Assembly: GCA_001306305.2 (NCBI GenBank)
Contig: CP155577.1
Coordinates: 372,001-436,000 of the forward strand
DNA: 64,000 nt
Direction: 5' to 3'
Source: Citromicrobium bathyomarinum
GTDB lineage: Bacteria > Pseudomonadota > Alphaproteobacteria > Sphingomonadales > Sphingomonadaceae
How positions within the stretch are numbered: the first letter of the stretch is position 1; each line of letters opens with the position of its first letter. Made by a program: the position numbers and the translations under genes. Shown piece by piece: positions 51,886-58,391 of the stretch. A model generated the notes under the pieces. It was given only the letters and a program-made list of their open reading frames with translations. It made no database searches and was not told where the DNA came from.

Positions 51886-52076
51886 CCCGCGCCTTCTCCC
51901 CCGGCGTGCCGCCGCTGGCAGCGCTCGCCGCGCAGGCGCTGGGCTGGACGCCGGACGCGTTCTGGCACGCCACCCCCGCCGAACTCGCCGCCGCGCTCGG
52001 TCCGACTTCGCCCGTTGGCGATGGCGTTGACCGAAGCGACCTCGACAGCCTGATGGAGCAATATCCCGATGCCTGA
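51882..52076 (+). CDS. Small tail assembly chaperone (TAC family, rcc01693 type)
   Basis: A 64-residue protein: AALAAQALGWTPDAFWHATP followed by a polar tail with SDLDSLMEQYPDA. It matches the short GTA tail chaperones that guide the tape measure. It starts four bases before the g10-type stop and overlaps the tape measure start by eight. Confidence 0.85.
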   Translation: MTRAFSPGVPPLAALAAQALGWTPDAFWHATPAELAAALGPTSPVGDGVDRSDLDSLMEQYPDA

Positions 52077-52650
52077 CCTTGCAGCCGACCCGGTCGACGC
52101 AATGCTGATCGACGTGCGCGCCAACACGCGCGGCTTTGCCGAGGATGTCGCCCGGATGCGGCAAGACCTCAACGGCGAACTCGTGGCCGGGTTTTCACGC
52201 GCGGGCGACGTTCTCGAACGCAGCCTGCTGAAAGCGATCCGGCGCGGCAGCCTCGGCTTCGAGGATTTGCAGGCCTCCGCCAGCAAGGCGATCGACCGGA
52301 TCGCGAGCCAGGCGCTCAAGCTCGGGATCGGTCAGATCTTCGGGGCGAACAATCCGCTGGGCGGGATCGTCGGCACTTTGCTGGGCGGTGTGCTCGGCCT
52401 ACCCGGCCGCGCGACCGGCGGCCCGGTGAGTGCGCAGCGCGGCTATCTGGTCGGTGAGCGCGGGCCCGAACTCTTCGTGCCTCCGTCGGATGGGCGGGTC
52501 GTGCCGCTGACAGCGCATGGCGGCGGTGCGCGGCGGGTCGAGGTGGCGATCCAGCTGGCCGCGCCTGCGGGCACCGCCGCGCCGATCGCGCTCGAACGCT
52601 CCAGCCGGCAGATCGCGGCGGCGGTGCGCCGGGCGATGGAGAACAGCTGA
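52069..52650 (+). CDS. Short tail tape measure protein
   Basis: A 193-residue protein, close to the 219-residue tape measure of RcGTA (g11) and very short for a phage. The helical N-terminal part (DEDVARMRQDLNGEL-like EDVARMRQDLNGELVAGFSR) and a Gly-rich hydrophobic centre (LGGIVGTLLGGVLGLPGRAT) precede a C-terminal beta part. It sets tail length and passes DNA/ejection signals. The stop overlaps the next ATG by one base. Confidence 0.85.
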   Translation: MPDLAADPVDAMLIDVRANTRGFAEDVARMRQDLNGELVAGFSRAGDVLERSLLKAIRRGSLGFEDLQASASKAIDRIASQALKLGIGQIFGANNPLGGIVGTLLGGVLGLPGRATGGPVSAQRGYLVGERGPELFVPPSDGRVVPLTAHGGGARRVEVAIQLAAPAGTAAPIALERSSRQIAAAVRRAMENS

Positions 52651-54989
52651 TGGCCTACTGGCTTTGCGCTGCCCGCAACGGGCAGGAGCACGACCATATC
52701 CAGCGCTTCGACCCGCGCTTCTGGACGGTCAATTTCCCCCGTCCGATGATGGCAAGCGTGGTCACCACCGCGCCCGATGCGCTGCGGCTGACCTGCGAAT
52801 TCCATCACGCGGGCGAACTCGCGGGGTTGATCTGGGAGAGCGTGGATAGGCTCGACCATCCGCTGCATCGCTACGCGACCGACCGCGATTATTCGCACAC
52901 GGTCCTGTCCTTCCGCTGGCGCAGCGGCGGGATCATCCCGCTCGACGCAGTCAATGGGCCGACGCTGACGATCGAGGGGCGCGATGCGAGCGGCACTGCG
53001 CGCAGCTGGTATGTCCGGCTGTGGAACTACGCCGAGGGGTCGCCCGAGGACGCGCGGGTGACGCTGCCGTTTTCGGCACTGGTGAGCGGCTTCACACTAC
53101 CCGGAGAGCCCGTCCATCCGCAGGACATCGACCGCATGTTCATCTCGCTGGTGCCGCCCGGCTACGTGCCGGGCAGCGCCGATCCGCTGGCCCAGCGCGC
53201 CGATGGCTGGGTCGAGCTGAGCGATATTGCCTGCGACGGCGCGCATGCGATGCTGGAGATCGGCGAGAGCATGCTGCCCGAGCATGGCGAGCAGATCGCG
53301 ACCGCCTATGACGACTGCTTCAACCAGACGCCTGCGCGGCTGATCCGCCAGATCCGCCAGCTCGGCTATCGCGGGCGGGTGGTCCACTATGTCGGGATGA
53401 GCCATTATTTCCGGCTCGAACCGCTTGGCAGCGGGCATTACGTCAGCCTCGCGGGCGGCGTGCTCAACGATGCCTGCGCTGCGTGGCATCGGGCTTTTGC
53501 CGAGGAGGCGCAGGCCGCCGGGTTCGAGGTCATCTGGTCGCTGTCCTACGAGTTGTTCGACGCGCATTGCTGGAACGACTGGAAACAGCGAGCCTACGAT
53601 GGCGCGCCTGCGCAGACCGGGTGGGAGCCGCCCTCTGCGCTGCTCTCGCCCGCGCATGCAGGGGCGATGGGCTACCTGCGGCAGGTCGCGTCGGCGTTCG
53701 TGCAGATCGCGCAGGCCGCCGGATTGCCGGTTCTCTTCCAGATCGGCGAGCCGTGGTGGTGGGTCATACCGGGCAGCTTCGGACCGTGCCTCTACGACGA
53801 TGCCGCAAAGGCCGCGTTCGGCGGCGATCCGCCGGTGATCGCGGATATGCGCGCACCGCTGGATGAGGCGCAGAAGGCACTGCTCGATCAGGCGGGAGCG
53901 CTGCTCGCCGCCTCCACCGCCGCGCTGGCGCAGGCGGTGCGCGATGCTGCCGGGGGTGAGGCAGAGGTGCTGCTGCTCGCCTTCACGCCGACGATCCTCG
54001 ACGGCCAGATGCCCGAGATCGAGCGTGCCAACCTGCCGACCGGCTGGGCCTGGCCCGCCTTCGATCGCTTGCAGTTGGAGGATTACGACTGGCTGACCGC
54101 CGGTGCCGATGCCCGCCGCCGCGCGGCTCACGCGCATGTCGATGCGCGGCTCGGCTACCCGATCGACCGGCAGGACTATTTCGCGGGCTTCGTGCTGAAC
54201 GCCGAAGATGCGCCCGCCTACTGGGCGCGGATCGACGCCGCGCTGGACGAGGCGCGCATGCGCGGCGTGACCCAGCGGTTCGTCTGGGCGCTGCCGCAGA
54301 TCGCACGCGACGGATACACCCGGCTTGCCCCGCCCCAGCCCGACCAGCGCGAGGACCACATGCAGAACTTCGACGACGTCCCCTATCCGCTCACACTCGG
54401 CACGGATGCCAGCGCGAGCCCCGAATTCTCGACCTCGGTGCTAGTCACCGCCTCGGGCCACGAACGCCGCACCGCGCAGTGGGCGGACGCGCGGTTGCGC
54501 TTCGATGTCGGACCTGGGATTCGTTCGGAGAGCGAGCTGGCAACCCTGCTCGGCTTCTTCCGCGCCCGCCATGGCCCCGCACGCGGCTTTCGCCTCACCG
54601 ATCCGTTCGATTTCTCGTCCAACGGCACCACGGGCGCGCCGACCCCTGCCGACCAGCTGCTCGGCCTCGGCGATGGCGAGACCACCCGCTTCGCGCTGGC
54701 CAAACGCTACGGTGAGGGACCCGAGCCGCAGGTCCGGCGGATCACCCGGCCCCACAGCGGCACGGTGCGCGTCTCGGTCGGCGGTCAGGAGACCGCAAGC
54801 TTCACGCTCGATCCGCTGGGCTTCGTGGTGCTCGACGATGCCCCGGCGGACGGAGCGGAAGTGCGCGCGGGCTTCCTGTTCGACGTGCCCGTGCGCTTTG
54901 CCGAGGACCGGCTGGCGATCAGCGCCGCCGGTTTTGCCGCCGGGCAGGCACCCAGCGTGCCGCTGATCGAGATCAGGGAGGCGGCATGA
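52650..54989 (+). CDS. DUF2460 distal tail protein with large N-terminal extension
   Basis: A 779-residue protein. The C-terminal about 210 residues (from residue 571, MQNFDDVPYPLTLGTDASAS) are the conserved DUF2460/TIGR02217 distal tail protein of RcGTA g12. The first 570 residues are extra: a beta-rich region (1-200), then a helical part with aromatic-rich motifs such as EVIWSLSYELFDAHCWNDWK, and further helices. It recalls glycoside-hydrolase TIM-barrel folds of GTA tails. An internal ATG at 54360 follows GAGGA, so a separate short protein may also be made. Confidence 0.85.
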   Translation: MAYWLCAARNGQEHDHIQRFDPRFWTVNFPRPMMASVVTTAPDALRLTCEFHHAGELAGLIWESVDRLDHPLHRYATDRDYSHTVLSFRWRSGGIIPLDAVNGPTLTIEGRDASGTARSWYVRLWNYAEGSPEDARVTLPFSALVSGFTLPGEPVHPQDIDRMFISLVPPGYVPGSADPLAQRADGWVELSDIACDGAHAMLEIGESMLPEHGEQIATAYDDCFNQTPARLIRQIRQLGYRGRVVHYVGMSHYFRLEPLGSGHYVSLAGGVLNDACAAWHRAFAEEAQAAGFEVIWSLSYELFDAHCWNDWKQRAYDGAPAQTGWEPPSALLSPAHAGAMGYLRQVASAFVQIAQAAGLPVLFQIGEPWWWVIPGSFGPCLYDDAAKAAFGGDPPVIADMRAPLDEAQKALLDQAGALLAASTAALAQAVRDAAGGEAEVLLLAFTPTILDGQMPEIERANLPTGWAWPAFDRLQLEDYDWLTAGADARRRAAHAHVDARLGYPIDRQDYFAGFVLNAEDAPAYWARIDAALDEARMRGVTQRFVWALPQIARDGYTRLAPPQPDQREDHMQNFDDVPYPLTLGTDASASPEFSTSVLVTASGHERRTAQWADARLRFDVGPGIRSESELATLLGFFRARHGPARGFRLTDPFDFSSNGTTGAPTPADQLLGLGDGETTRFALAKRYGEGPEPQVRRITRPHSGTVRVSVGGQETASFTLDPLGFVVLDDAPADGAEVRAGFLFDVPVRFAEDRLAISAAGFAAGQAPSVPLIEIREAA
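54351..54362 (+). promoter_or_regulatory. Internal ribosome binding site before the DUF2460 domain
   Basis: GAGGA four bases before an in-frame ATG (54360) that starts exactly where the conserved domain starts (MQNFDDVPYP). Translation here would give a 209-residue stand-alone g12-type protein, as in most GTAs. The spacing is a little short. Confidence 0.55.
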
Positions 54990-55801
54990 GCGAGGTATTC
55001 GAGACGGACCGCCTCGCAACCCGCGCCTTCTTCTGGCGGATCGAGCGGCGCGATGGCGTGACGCTGGGCTTCACCAGCCACGACCGCGACCTGATGCTGG
55101 AAGACGTGCGGCTGCGCGCCGCGCCCGGCATCCGCCCCGCCGCGCTGCGCCTGACGGGCGAGATTGCAGGCGACGACGCGCAGATGGACGGCGCGATCAC
55201 GCACGACGCGATCTCGGCGGCCGATCTGGAAGCGGGCCGCTTCGACGGCGCAGCGGTGACGATCGGCAGCATCGACTGGCAGAGCGGCGAGGCCCAGGCG
55301 CATTACTGGGGCACGATCGGCCAGACGGAAGCCGTCGCCGACGGTTTCTCCGCTCAGCTGCATTCGGCCAAGGCTGCACTGGAGGAAGACCCGGTCCCGC
55401 GCACCAGCCCCGGATGCCGCGCGCGCTTTTGTGGGCCCGGCTGCAACCTGTCGCCCGTACGCTTCACGGTAGAACGGCAGGTCGCGACGATCGAAGCAAG
55501 TGCCAATGCGGTCGGCTTTGAAGAGCTCGCGAGCGCGGATTTCGTGTTCGGGGAGCTGCGCTGGCTGGAAGGGCCCGCGCTCGGCCTGCGCCAGACCATT
55601 ATCGCCGATGAGGCCGGAATGCTGGTGCTCGACAGCAGCATTCCGGCCGGAGTGCGCGAGGGAACCCGCGCCCAGCTGCGCGAGGGCTGCGACCGCACTA
55701 TCGCCACCTGCTCCACCCGCTTCGCCAATGCGGTGAACTTTCGCGGCGAACCCTTCCTGCCAGGCAACGACCTCGTCGCCCGCTACCCATCGCGCAGCTG
55801 A
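54986..55801 (+). CDS. DUF2163 tail hub protein (g13 type)
   Basis: A 271-residue protein of TIGR02218/DUF2163. FFWRIERRDGVTLGFTSHDR is the conserved start, and SPGCRARFCGPGCNLSPVRF (about 137-156) holds three cysteines close together. RcGTA hub protein is reported to hold an iron-sulfur cluster, and these cysteines plus a later one (LREGCDRTIATCSTRF) are candidate ligands. ATGA overlaps the previous gene, and its stop joins the next start. Confidence 0.9.
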   Translation: MSEVFETDRLATRAFFWRIERRDGVTLGFTSHDRDLMLEDVRLRAAPGIRPAALRLTGEIAGDDAQMDGAITHDAISAADLEAGRFDGAAVTIGSIDWQSGEAQAHYWGTIGQTEAVADGFSAQLHSAKAALEEDPVPRTSPGCRARFCGPGCNLSPVRFTVERQVATIEASANAVGFEELASADFVFGELRWLEGPALGLRQTIIADEAGMLVLDSSIPAGVREGTRAQLREGCDRTIATCSTRFANAVNFRGEPFLPGNDLVARYPSRS

Positions 55802-56223
55802 TGGACAGGGCATCCCAGATCGCACGCGCGGCGGGCGATCTGGTCGGCACACCGTTCCGCTTGCAGGGGCGTGATCCATCGACCGGGCTCGACTGTATCG
55901 GGCTGGTGCTGGCCAGCCTCGCCGCGGCGGAGATCACTCTCGCGCTGCCAGCGGATTACCGGCCGCAACGCCGAGGCTTCGCGCTTCCCTATGAAGCGCT
56001 GGCAGCAGCGGGCCTGATCGCAATTCGCGCACCACGCCGCGCGGGCGATGTCCTGCTTCTGGAGACCGGCCCGGCGCAGGTCCATGCGGCGGTCGCCGTA
56101 AGTCGGCACCGAATCGTCCATGCCCACGCCGGGCTTCGCCGGGTCGTCGAAAGCCCGCTGCCCGATCACTGGCGCGTGCTCGCCTGCTGGCGGCCCGCTG
56201 CCAATCCGCAAGGAGATACATGA
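55801..56223 (+). CDS. NlpC/P60-family peptidase of the GTA tail
   Basis: A 140-residue cysteine peptidase: GTPFRLQGRDPSTGLDCIGL with the catalytic Cys near residue 31, and ETGPAQVHAAVAVSRHRIVH with the His near 98. It matches RcGTA g14, which degrades peptidoglycan during entry. Start overlaps the g13 stop by one base. RBS AAGGAG within its end serves the next gene. Confidence 0.9.
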   Translation: MDRASQIARAAGDLVGTPFRLQGRDPSTGLDCIGLVLASLAAAEITLALPADYRPQRRGFALPYEALAAAGLIAIRAPRRAGDVLLLETGPAQVHAAVAVSRHRIVHAHAGLRRVVESPLPDHWRVLACWRPAANPQGDT

Positions 56224-58391
56224 TGGCAACGCTGATCCTGTCCACGGTCGGCACCGCGCTCGGCGGGCCGATTGGCGGGGCGATCGGGGCGGTGCTGGGC
56301 CGCGCGGTCGACAGCGCGGTGATCGGCACGCCGACCCGCCAAGGCCCGCGCCTGACCGAGCTGGCGGTGTCCACCTCCAGCTACGGCCAGCCGGTGCCGC
56401 GCGTGTTCGGCACGATGCGGGTGCCCGGCGCAATCATCTGGGCGACCGAACTGGTCGAAAGCAGTCAGACGAGCGGCGGCAAGGGGCAGCCGAAGACCAC
56501 CACCTACAGCTACGCGATCTCCTTCGCGGTCGCGCTGTCGAGCCGGCCAGTCGCCGCGATAGGGCGTATCTGGGCCGATGGCGCATTGCTGCGCGGGAGC
56601 GCGGGCGACCTGAAAGTCGGCGGGGTCATGCGGCTGCACAAGGGCACCGGAGACGACGAAGTCGATCCATTGATCGTCGCAGACAAGGTCGCGCAGGGCT
56701 GTGCCTTCCGCGACCTCGCCTATCTGGTGTTCGAGGACCTGGAGCTGGCCAGCTTCGGCAATCGCATCCCAGCGCTCAGCTTCGAGGTGACCGCGCCCGA
56801 CGGTACGCTCGACGTCGTCGACCTGCTTGAAGACATCCCGCTTGCGGCTGGCGCTAGTGCTCCGCTGGCGGGGCTGCGGGGCTTCGCCGATCAGGGCGGG
56901 TCGCGCGCGGACCTGCTGGCGCATGTGGGACAGGTTTTCCCGCTGACGCTTGGCGCGACCGCCGAGGGCCTATCCCTGTCGCCGGTGGAGGTCGGCGAGC
57001 CGATCGCGCTGCCACCGCCGGTGGTCGGTCGGCTTGATGGGGAGAATCGCGCCGAGCCTCGCGTGCGCCGCGACGCGTCCAAGCGCGAGGTGCCAGCGGC
57101 CTTGCGCTATTACGATCCCGCGCGCGACTACCAGCCCTCGCTCCAGCGTGCGCCGGGCGTCGGCGGGGCGAGCGAGCAGATCGAGTTCCCCGGGGCCTTT
57201 GCCGCACCGGACGCACAGGGACGGATCGCCGCGCTGCATCGCCGCGCCCTGACCGCACGCGACAATCTCGAATGGCGGATCGCAGAGCCCGCGGCGGGAA
57301 TCGTGCCGGGGGCCGTGGTGACGCGCGCTAGCCACGGCGATGTCTGGCGCGTGAGTAGCTGGGAATGGCACGCCGACGGGATCGACCTGGGGCTGGAGCG
57401 GATCGCGCGGCTCCCTGCGGGGCGCTCGGTTGCTGATCCGGGCTCCGGCCCGCCCCCGCTCGATGAAGTGCCGGGCGAGCTCGTGCTTCGCTATGTCGAA
57501 CTGCCGTGGGACGGATCGGGCGATCCGGCGACGCCGCAACGCTACGCCGCGCTCAGCATGGCGGGTACTCGCAGCCCGATCGCGCTGTCGGCGGTGGAGG
57601 GCGATGCGCTGCTTCCGCTCGGGCAGGTGGGCCGTGGCGACACGGTCCAGGGTGCCAGCGTTGCACCGCTCGCGCCCTCCCCCAGCCTGCTGTTCGAGGC
57701 GGAGGCCACGCTGGAGATCGCGCTGGTCTCGGCCGGCATGCAGCTGCAATCGGTCGACATGCCCGCGCTGCTGGGCGGCGCGAACCGGCTGCTGCTGGGC
57801 GAGGAAGTGCTCCAGTTCCGCCAAGCCGAACCGCTCGGCGATGCGCACTGGCGCTTGACCGGCCTACTGCGCGGGCGCGCAGGGACCGAACATCACGCAG
57901 CTGCAGGCCACCCGCAGGGCACTGCCGCAATCCTGATCGACCACCGGCTGGTCGCGCTCCCGGCGCAGGATCACATGGAGATCGCTGCGCTTCCCGGTGT
58001 CGGCTTGACCGAGCCCGTCTACGCCGCGCTTGGCTCTGCCGGCGTCACGCAGCGCCCGCTCACCCCTGTCCACCCGCGGGTCGATCTCACAGCGGCGGGC
58101 GATGCGATGTGGAGCTGGGTGCGCAGGGCACGCGGAGGCTGGCGCTGGCAGGACGGAGTGGACATGCCGCTGGTCGAGGAGCGCGAAACCTATCAGGTCG
58201 GCCTCGGTTCGCTCGAAACGCCACATGCGCTGTGGGAGGTGACCGGGCCGAGCTTCTCCCTAACCCAGACCCAACGGGCAGACTTGCGCGCACTCCACCC
58301 GTTAGCGGCGCTGTGGGTTCGCCAGATCGGCACCCGTGGTCTGTCGCCCCCCGTCCGCCTTCCCACCGCCCCATCCCAGGAGACCAACTGA
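56223..58391 (+). CDS. GTA host-specificity/baseplate megatron protein (g15 type, short)
   Basis: A 722-residue protein. The N-terminus (ATLILSTVGTALGGPIGGAI) starts the family, then a tail-hub region with QPVPRVFGTMRVPGAIIWAT and the C-terminal part with LLRGRAGTEHHAAAGHPQGT. RcGTA g15 is about 1300 residues and contains a TIM-barrel-like domain that is missing here. ATG 56223 is preferred over 56220 (seven versus four bases from AAGGAG). Confidence 0.88.
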   Translation: MATLILSTVGTALGGPIGGAIGAVLGRAVDSAVIGTPTRQGPRLTELAVSTSSYGQPVPRVFGTMRVPGAIIWATELVESSQTSGGKGQPKTTTYSYAISFAVALSSRPVAAIGRIWADGALLRGSAGDLKVGGVMRLHKGTGDDEVDPLIVADKVAQGCAFRDLAYLVFEDLELASFGNRIPALSFEVTAPDGTLDVVDLLEDIPLAAGASAPLAGLRGFADQGGSRADLLAHVGQVFPLTLGATAEGLSLSPVEVGEPIALPPPVVGRLDGENRAEPRVRRDASKREVPAALRYYDPARDYQPSLQRAPGVGGASEQIEFPGAFAAPDAQGRIAALHRRALTARDNLEWRIAEPAAGIVPGAVVTRASHGDVWRVSSWEWHADGIDLGLERIARLPAGRSVADPGSGPPPLDEVPGELVLRYVELPWDGSGDPATPQRYAALSMAGTRSPIALSAVEGDALLPLGQVGRGDTVQGASVAPLAPSPSLLFEAEATLEIALVSAGMQLQSVDMPALLGGANRLLLGEEVLQFRQAEPLGDAHWRLTGLLRGRAGTEHHAAAGHPQGTAAILIDHRLVALPAQDHMEIAALPGVGLTEPVYAALGSAGVTQRPLTPVHPRVDLTAAGDAMWSWVRRARGGWRWQDGVDMPLVEERETYQVGLGSLETPHALWEVTGPSFSLTQTQRADLRALHPLAALWVRQIGTRGLSPPVRLPTAPSQETN

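Follow-up and report, generated by a model that had tools for sequence, protein, structure and literature searches.

In the 64,000-nucleotide stretch of Citromicrobium bathyomarinum DNA analysed here (the window, whose numbering is used for the gene cluster below), the gene at 52650-54989 on the forward strand very likely produces two forms of a distal tail protein (DTP, g12), as judged from sequence comparison. The long form of 779 amino acids carries a module of the 'non-contractile tail sheath' (NCTSP) family in frame before the DTP, and the short form is the DTP made from an internal start codon at the border of the two parts. This would be a directly testable case of a structural subunit that occurs in two versions in the same particle, both encoded by a single gene. 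Annotation of a single long g12 hides the second product.

Fused gene and gene cluster

An earlier note on this DNA had described a fused g12 reading frame with DUF2460 in its C-terminal part. This was confirmed: DUF2460 occupies residues 575-776 of the 779-residue product (Pfam E 2.3e-73; 246.4 bits, cut-off 30.4), and the C-terminus also matched TIGR02217, 'phage distal tail protein, Rcc01695 family' (NCBIfam; 187 bits, cut-off 136.65). Upstream, in this order, lie NCTSP_N (PF23844; residues 17-205, 52698-53264; E 9.9e-99, 328.7 bits) and TIM-barrel_NCTSP (PF23845; residues 210-556, 53277-54317; 578.2 bits), both with a curated Pfam cut-off of 27. According to these family matches, the extension is the NCTSP module of the phage N4 gp65/gp64 family. 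The ATG that had been placed at the domain border was found at 54360-54362 (residue 571), and the Shine-Dalgarno (SD)-like GAGGA four bases upstream of it at 54351-54355. The short form of 209 amino acids runs from 54360 to 54989, and the residues around its start (565-572, 54342-54365) form a linker predicted to be flexible.

The gene is part of an RcGTA-like head-tail cluster in which Pfam identified terminase, portal, capsid, hub, NlpC/P60 peptidase, megatron and DUF2793 proteins; on these assignments the cluster is an RcGTA-like gene transfer agent (GTA) of the Sphingomonadales. All neighbours given here are on the forward strand. A 193-amino-acid protein (52069-52650), named by its position as tape measure (g11), had no Pfam match, and its TGA stop codon overlaps the ATG of the long form. 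Downstream follow the baseplate hub (g13; 54986-55801; PF09931, PF09356), the NlpC/P60 peptidase (g14; 55801-56223; PF00877) and a megatron of 723 amino acids (g15; 56220-58391; PF23666, PF13550, without PF13547).

Conservation of the internal start codon

The main set consisted of 92 loci, one per genome, after the decayed loci of genomes G014 and G024 had been removed beforehand. The frame continued across the border in 89 of them, and the remaining three (L063, L072 and L116) were left out of the counts. The DTP part was of full length in 85 of the 89 fusions and shortened in four, in one of these because the contig ends.

The border codon was a start codon in all 89 fusions (45 ATG, 41 GTG and 3 TTG); in L019 the ATG was read by hand, as MAFFT had placed the border one residue off. 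Every border valine (41 of 41) was encoded by GTG, while the mean share of GTG among the valine codons of the same genes was 50%, and all three border leucines were encoded by TTG. Among the 74 columns with at least 20 valines, no other was exclusively GTG. A start codon also occupied all rows of one further column, residue 250, owing to its invariant methionine. Positions -6 to -1, +1 and +2 around the border varied, with Glu at -3 in 68 of 89 rows, and position +3 was Phe in 86 of 89. The switches between ATG, GTG and TTG required 24 changes on a quick tree of the 89 rows, and the well-supported branches by themselves forced 16 changes for the ATG label. A start codon at the border by chance was ruled out by the unbroken conservation, the exclusive use of GTG for the border valines and the 24 codon changes. 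At the level of sequence comparison, this establishes that the internal start is kept by selection.

Similar results were obtained with three replicate sets (IMG/VR, a pool of all loci, and named genomes), which share species with the main set. Of 80 loci fetched from IMG/VR two were broken, and all 78 in-frame loci had a start codon at the border (44 ATG, 34 GTG), with an SD tetramer in 75. The pool contained 339 in-frame fusions, 256 of them distinct over the last 900 bases. All 256 had the start codon: 249 carried it in the aligned column, and in the remaining 7 an ATG, GTG or TTG opened the same M/V/L-x-F pattern one codon further downstream. Among the 249, a subset of 204 representatives with less than 90% identity comprised 111 ATG, 88 GTG and 5 TTG. 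The named genomes gave 79 in-frame fusions (of 80), all with a start codon (within the column for 78, and a codon further downstream for L488) and 74 with an SD tetramer.

The excluded loci L063 (G044) and L116 (G282) have one stop codon in the extension, with an open DTP part and other GTA genes nearby; the cause may be decay, an error in sequencing, or reliance on the short form only. In L072 the frame is shifted within the DTP part.

Ribosome-binding site and RNA structure

The internal site of the window is not strong (-5.9 kcal/mol). An upstream SD match as strong was present at 12% of the codons of this gene and at 5 of its 37 other in-frame NTG codons. Since the site is unremarkable in the window alone, the case for the internal start rests on conservation.

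In the main set, one of the tetramers GGAG, GAGG or AGGA was present at -18 to -4 of the border in 85 of 89 fusions, compared with 6,280 of 64,775 other codon positions, and the best match to AGGAGG had a 5-nt spacer in 72 of 89. The view that this element is purely a by-product of a Glu-rich linker is partly true, as synonymous resampling yielded the tetramer in a mean of 59.8 of 89, but the maximum was 68, and the observed 85 exceeded all 200 draws. The mean SD energy was -8.56 kcal/mol at the border and -6.36 kcal/mol after resampling. The long start had the tetramer in 70 of 89 genes, a count in which the script had assigned the long start of 2 of the 89 to a codon other than a start codon, and its mean SD match was -6.96 kcal/mol. 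A stronger SD sequence in compensation for GTG had a raw p of 1.8e-5 but vanished in phylogenetically independent pairs.

Predicted RNA structure at the border was weaker than the control mean of the gene in all 89 fusions (-7.06 versus -13.98 kcal/mol). The border was the weakest point of the profile from -180 to +180, and weaker than the long start (-10.40 kcal/mol). Lower GC content accounts for part of this; relative to shuffled letters, however, the border still had a z of +0.95, compared with -0.39 at a point one hundred codons upstream.

The same module on the hub protein

A natural control was provided by loci in which a separate DTP gene is followed by the same module on the N-terminus of the hub (L068, L069 and L211 of genome G574). 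L068 (8203-11097, reverse strand) and L069 (2818-5616, forward strand) are prophage-like loci of Sphingomonadales. These three resemble the window in having the module next to a DUF2460 gene within a GTA-like tail cluster, but their module is on the hub, and their DTP gene is separate. Eight viral contigs and two additional genomes brought the number of NCTSP-hub loci to 13, with 9 distinct border peptides. In the 30 codons after the barrel, a start codon with an SD tetramer was found in 0 of the 13. The linker contained an NTG codon without SD in 2 loci, and in others NTG codons occurred solely inside the hub part. The start signal is therefore seen with the module on the DTP and not with the module on the hub.

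The earlier note had offered the dual products as an inference. Comparison lends this strong support, with start codon, SD sequence and low RNA structure all conserved at the DTP border and no such signal at the hub border of relatives.

Predicted structure and function of the module

An AlphaFold2 model built on an alignment of 70 fused proteins had a mean pLDDT of 92.1. Residues 565-572 were the sole segment of at least three residues with values below 50, which agrees with the domain border that had been placed at the internal start. In a Foldseek search of the PDB, two chains of N4 gp64 were the top matches (E 1.1e-21 and 5.6e-20), followed by gp65 chains, and the R4C distal tail protein was fifth (E 3.8e-17). 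TIM-barrel glycosidases (acid alpha-glucosidase, beta-amylase, PgaB) ranked after these chains. The closest predicted viral proteins were tail or uncharacterised proteins of 870-1,390 residues from phages IMEAB3, Goslar, MJG and uligo.

Profile alignment also linked the extension to the N4 sheath proteins gp65/gp64 (PDB 9lc0, 9yf4, 9yf5, 9yft): positions 270-558 aligned with gp64, and positions 7-90 and 191-257 with gp65. We read this as one barrel, which N4 appears to spread over two chains. In N4 the module thus belongs to a podovirus tail, whereas here it is a single chain on a siphovirus-type DTP. Phage phi92 gp142 and its relatives also have the module on one chain (about 32% identity over query residues 18-559), but the CDS of gp142 has 2,160 bases (719 amino acids) and is followed by a tailspike gene.

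The description of the N-terminal part as 'hydrolase-like' in the earlier note was right at the level of the fold. Residues 210-556 matched TIM-barrel_NCTSP with an E of 6.9e-174, and the comparison with TIM-barrel glycosidases that had been proposed there supports the fold through family, model and Foldseek matches. That note had also held that its reading would fail if the extension were the normal g12 N-terminus of Sphingomonadales GTAs with no fold of its own; it is the usual N-terminus there, and its predicted fold is confident. The suggestion that fused copies act as side fibres was unsupported, the module belonging to the tail-sheath and receptor-binding family of N4 gp65/gp64.

Six acidic residues of the TIM barrel (D221, D222, E301, E367, E477 and D478) were invariant across the 70 aligned proteins. 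They come after strands 1, 3, 4 and 6 of the predicted model and align with acids in N4 in the profile alignment, which fits a candidate sugar-binding or catalytic pocket. Degradation of glycan by the module is possible. It could even be a catalytically active glycoside hydrolase, opening a way through polysaccharide at the surface, which would be compatible with two products and would agree with the barrel, the glycosidases (acid alpha-glucosidase, PgaB) among the Foldseek matches and the invariant acids shared with N4. We regard this as doubtful, though quite possible: the module had no sequence match to any glycoside hydrolase family at an E of 1 or better (Pfam, NCBIfam), and the N4 relatives are described, in the part of PMC12633501 used here, as a gp64:gp65 sheath with gp65 as receptor-binding protein.

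Two products and the distal tail ring

The best explanation, to which we assign a probability of roughly 80%, combines a fusion, two starts, a mixed DTP ring and a module acting on glycan or receptor. An N4-type sheath module (NCTSP_N plus TIM barrel) would have been fused in frame before a DTP whose own ribosome-binding site and start codon were retained. Initiation at 52650 would produce the long form and initiation at 54360 the plain 209-residue DTP. Both forms would enter the ring that joins the tail tube to the baseplate, so that the module, as we propose, would be present on part of the ring only. By analogy with N4 gp65/gp64, it may project around the tail tip and bind, or possibly cleave, a surface glycan or receptor. 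The ring of six subunits probably mixes long and short forms; we infer their ratio and placement in the ring as well as the adhesive role of the module.

The position of the border start agrees with that of unfused members of the same DTP family, RcGTA Rcc01695 (g12; PDB 6tba, 6teb, 6teh) and R4C Dit (8gtc). Position 568 of the fused-set profile aligned with residue 2 of both, so the border start falls where an unfused DTP begins; these proteins differ in having 210 and 214 amino acids and no module. In the parts of PMC7296036 and PMC10276861 used here, the DTP of RcGTA and R4C is described as one hexamer and the hub and megatron as trimers; in RcGTA, DTP residue Ala2 is touched by hub and megatron, and odd and even DTPs differ. 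The long form would have to accommodate its 570 added residues at this contact with the baseplate, a point that counts against the proposed ring. With GTA_TIM on the megatron and the NCTSP module on the hub in relatives, barrels elsewhere are on three-copy proteins, and here on the six-copy DTP. It is tempting, though at slightly less than even odds, to suppose that the module moved onto the DTP here and that the resulting six-to-three symmetry problem is solved by translation, the internal start diluting the module to three long and three short DTPs at odd and even positions.

Other readings of the border start were weighed against this one. The long form alone might function, with six fused DTPs around the tail as in the N4 sheath, whose gp64:gp65 units are six-fold in the part of PMC12633501 used here, and the border start would then be a relic of the former DTP gene. 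The SD tetramer that most long starts also have (70 of 89) would agree with this. A relic is expected to decay, yet the start codon is kept in proteins down to 44% identity and through 24 codon changes, with GTG for each of the 41 valines and a persistent SD sequence and weak structure, and we consider this reading improbable. Even less credence, very little indeed, is given to a single protein in which the SD-like element pauses the ribosome, giving the module time to fold ahead of the DTP. The element does lie within the linker between two folded parts, but pausing needs no start codon, and all 89 fusions have one, again with GTG for every valine; moreover, NCTSP-hub fusions share this type of border without the SD and start signal.

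It is also conceivable, although unlikely, that both forms are made and mixed unevenly, the short form building most rings and the long form being a minor or loosely placed arm on some particles. The stronger SD sequence at the internal start (-8.56 versus -6.96 kcal/mol; 85 versus 70 of 89) would fit such an excess of the short form. Against this, the DTP portion is conserved in the long form and complete in 85 of 89 fusions, an indication that long forms are incorporated into the ring. A ring in which long and short forms both take part remains the preferred reading.

Distribution of the fusion and of the two TIM barrels

Among 60 relatives, 35 matched the extension, 36 DUF2460 and 34 both. 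DUF2460 alone was present in G009 and G053, and G042 had a remnant of the extension. In this remnant (L070, 5864-6622, reverse strand), extension residues 1-70 directly precede hub residues 86-268 and no distal tail match separates them, as if a deletion had occurred in a cluster undergoing decay. The search for the extension in other GTA clusters that had been proposed earlier showed the fusion to be the usual form in Sphingomonadales GTAs. The internal start is kept by selection throughout this order, where 225 of the 396 genomes sampled passed the cut-off for TIM-barrel_NCTSP. In a class-wide sample the module was matched in 5 of 385 genomes, four in the family of the window and the fifth being G574 with the module on the hub; in this sample no module-DTP fusion was seen outside the Sphingomonadales. 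DUF2460 was found in 31 of 190 class-wide genomes. Two of these were in the family of the window, and the matches listed outside it were in open frames of 203-362 amino acids, which are too short to hold the extension.

RcGTA also has a TIM barrel on its baseplate, the GTA_TIM domain (PF13547) of the megatron, whose function is called unknown in the part of PMC13420450 used here. The RcGTA megatron is described as having 1,304 residues with a peripheral domain at 230-744. The megatron of the window lacks this peripheral TIM-barrel domain of about 500 residues, and PF13547 had no match in the fused protein or the megatron of the window, or in G000. It was likewise found in none of the 30 fusion-bearing Sphingomonadales genomes searched and in neither of the 2 that have only DUF2460. 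Of the 29 non-Sphingomonadales DUF2460 genomes 26 were searched, and 16 had GTA_TIM; the 13 of these 16 loci that were fetched had megatron frames of 1,206-1,500 amino acids. The two barrels differ in carrier protein and have no sequence relation; homology was unsupported, with an hhalign probability of 0.5%. We do not claim that the two barrels strictly exclude each other across the class, as 10 of the 26 genomes had no GTA_TIM, and most of these 10, with the exception of G574, also lacked the NCTSP barrel among those listed in the class sample. These patterns suggest an exchange of unrelated TIM barrels among the carrier proteins of GTA baseplates, a point of relevance to the role of the barrel of the RcGTA megatron.

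The extension belongs to a named Pfam family and is the usual g12 N-terminus in Sphingomonadales GTAs; the case combines a swap of modules with a second start that is conserved. The main-text portions used of PMC9836097, PMC10883770, PMC9765227, PMC11409702, PMC6821227 and PMC9662315 make no mention of an NCTSP-g12 fusion, at least in this wording, and the open-licence PMC literature contained no paper joining gene transfer agent, distal tail protein and Sphingomonadales.

The carriers among the 80 best loci included Qipengyuania, Erythrobacter, Novosphingobium, Sphingobium, Sphingomonas, Sphingopyxis, Polymorphobacter and others. Many contigs with this GTA gene are classed as viral in IMG/VR (L131-L210); their appearance is that of GTA clusters from sphingomonads and not of viruses. 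The record L460, with the title Arthrobacter sp. TPD3018, is probably misnamed or mixed, because it carries a fused gene of the sphingomonad type with 59% identity.
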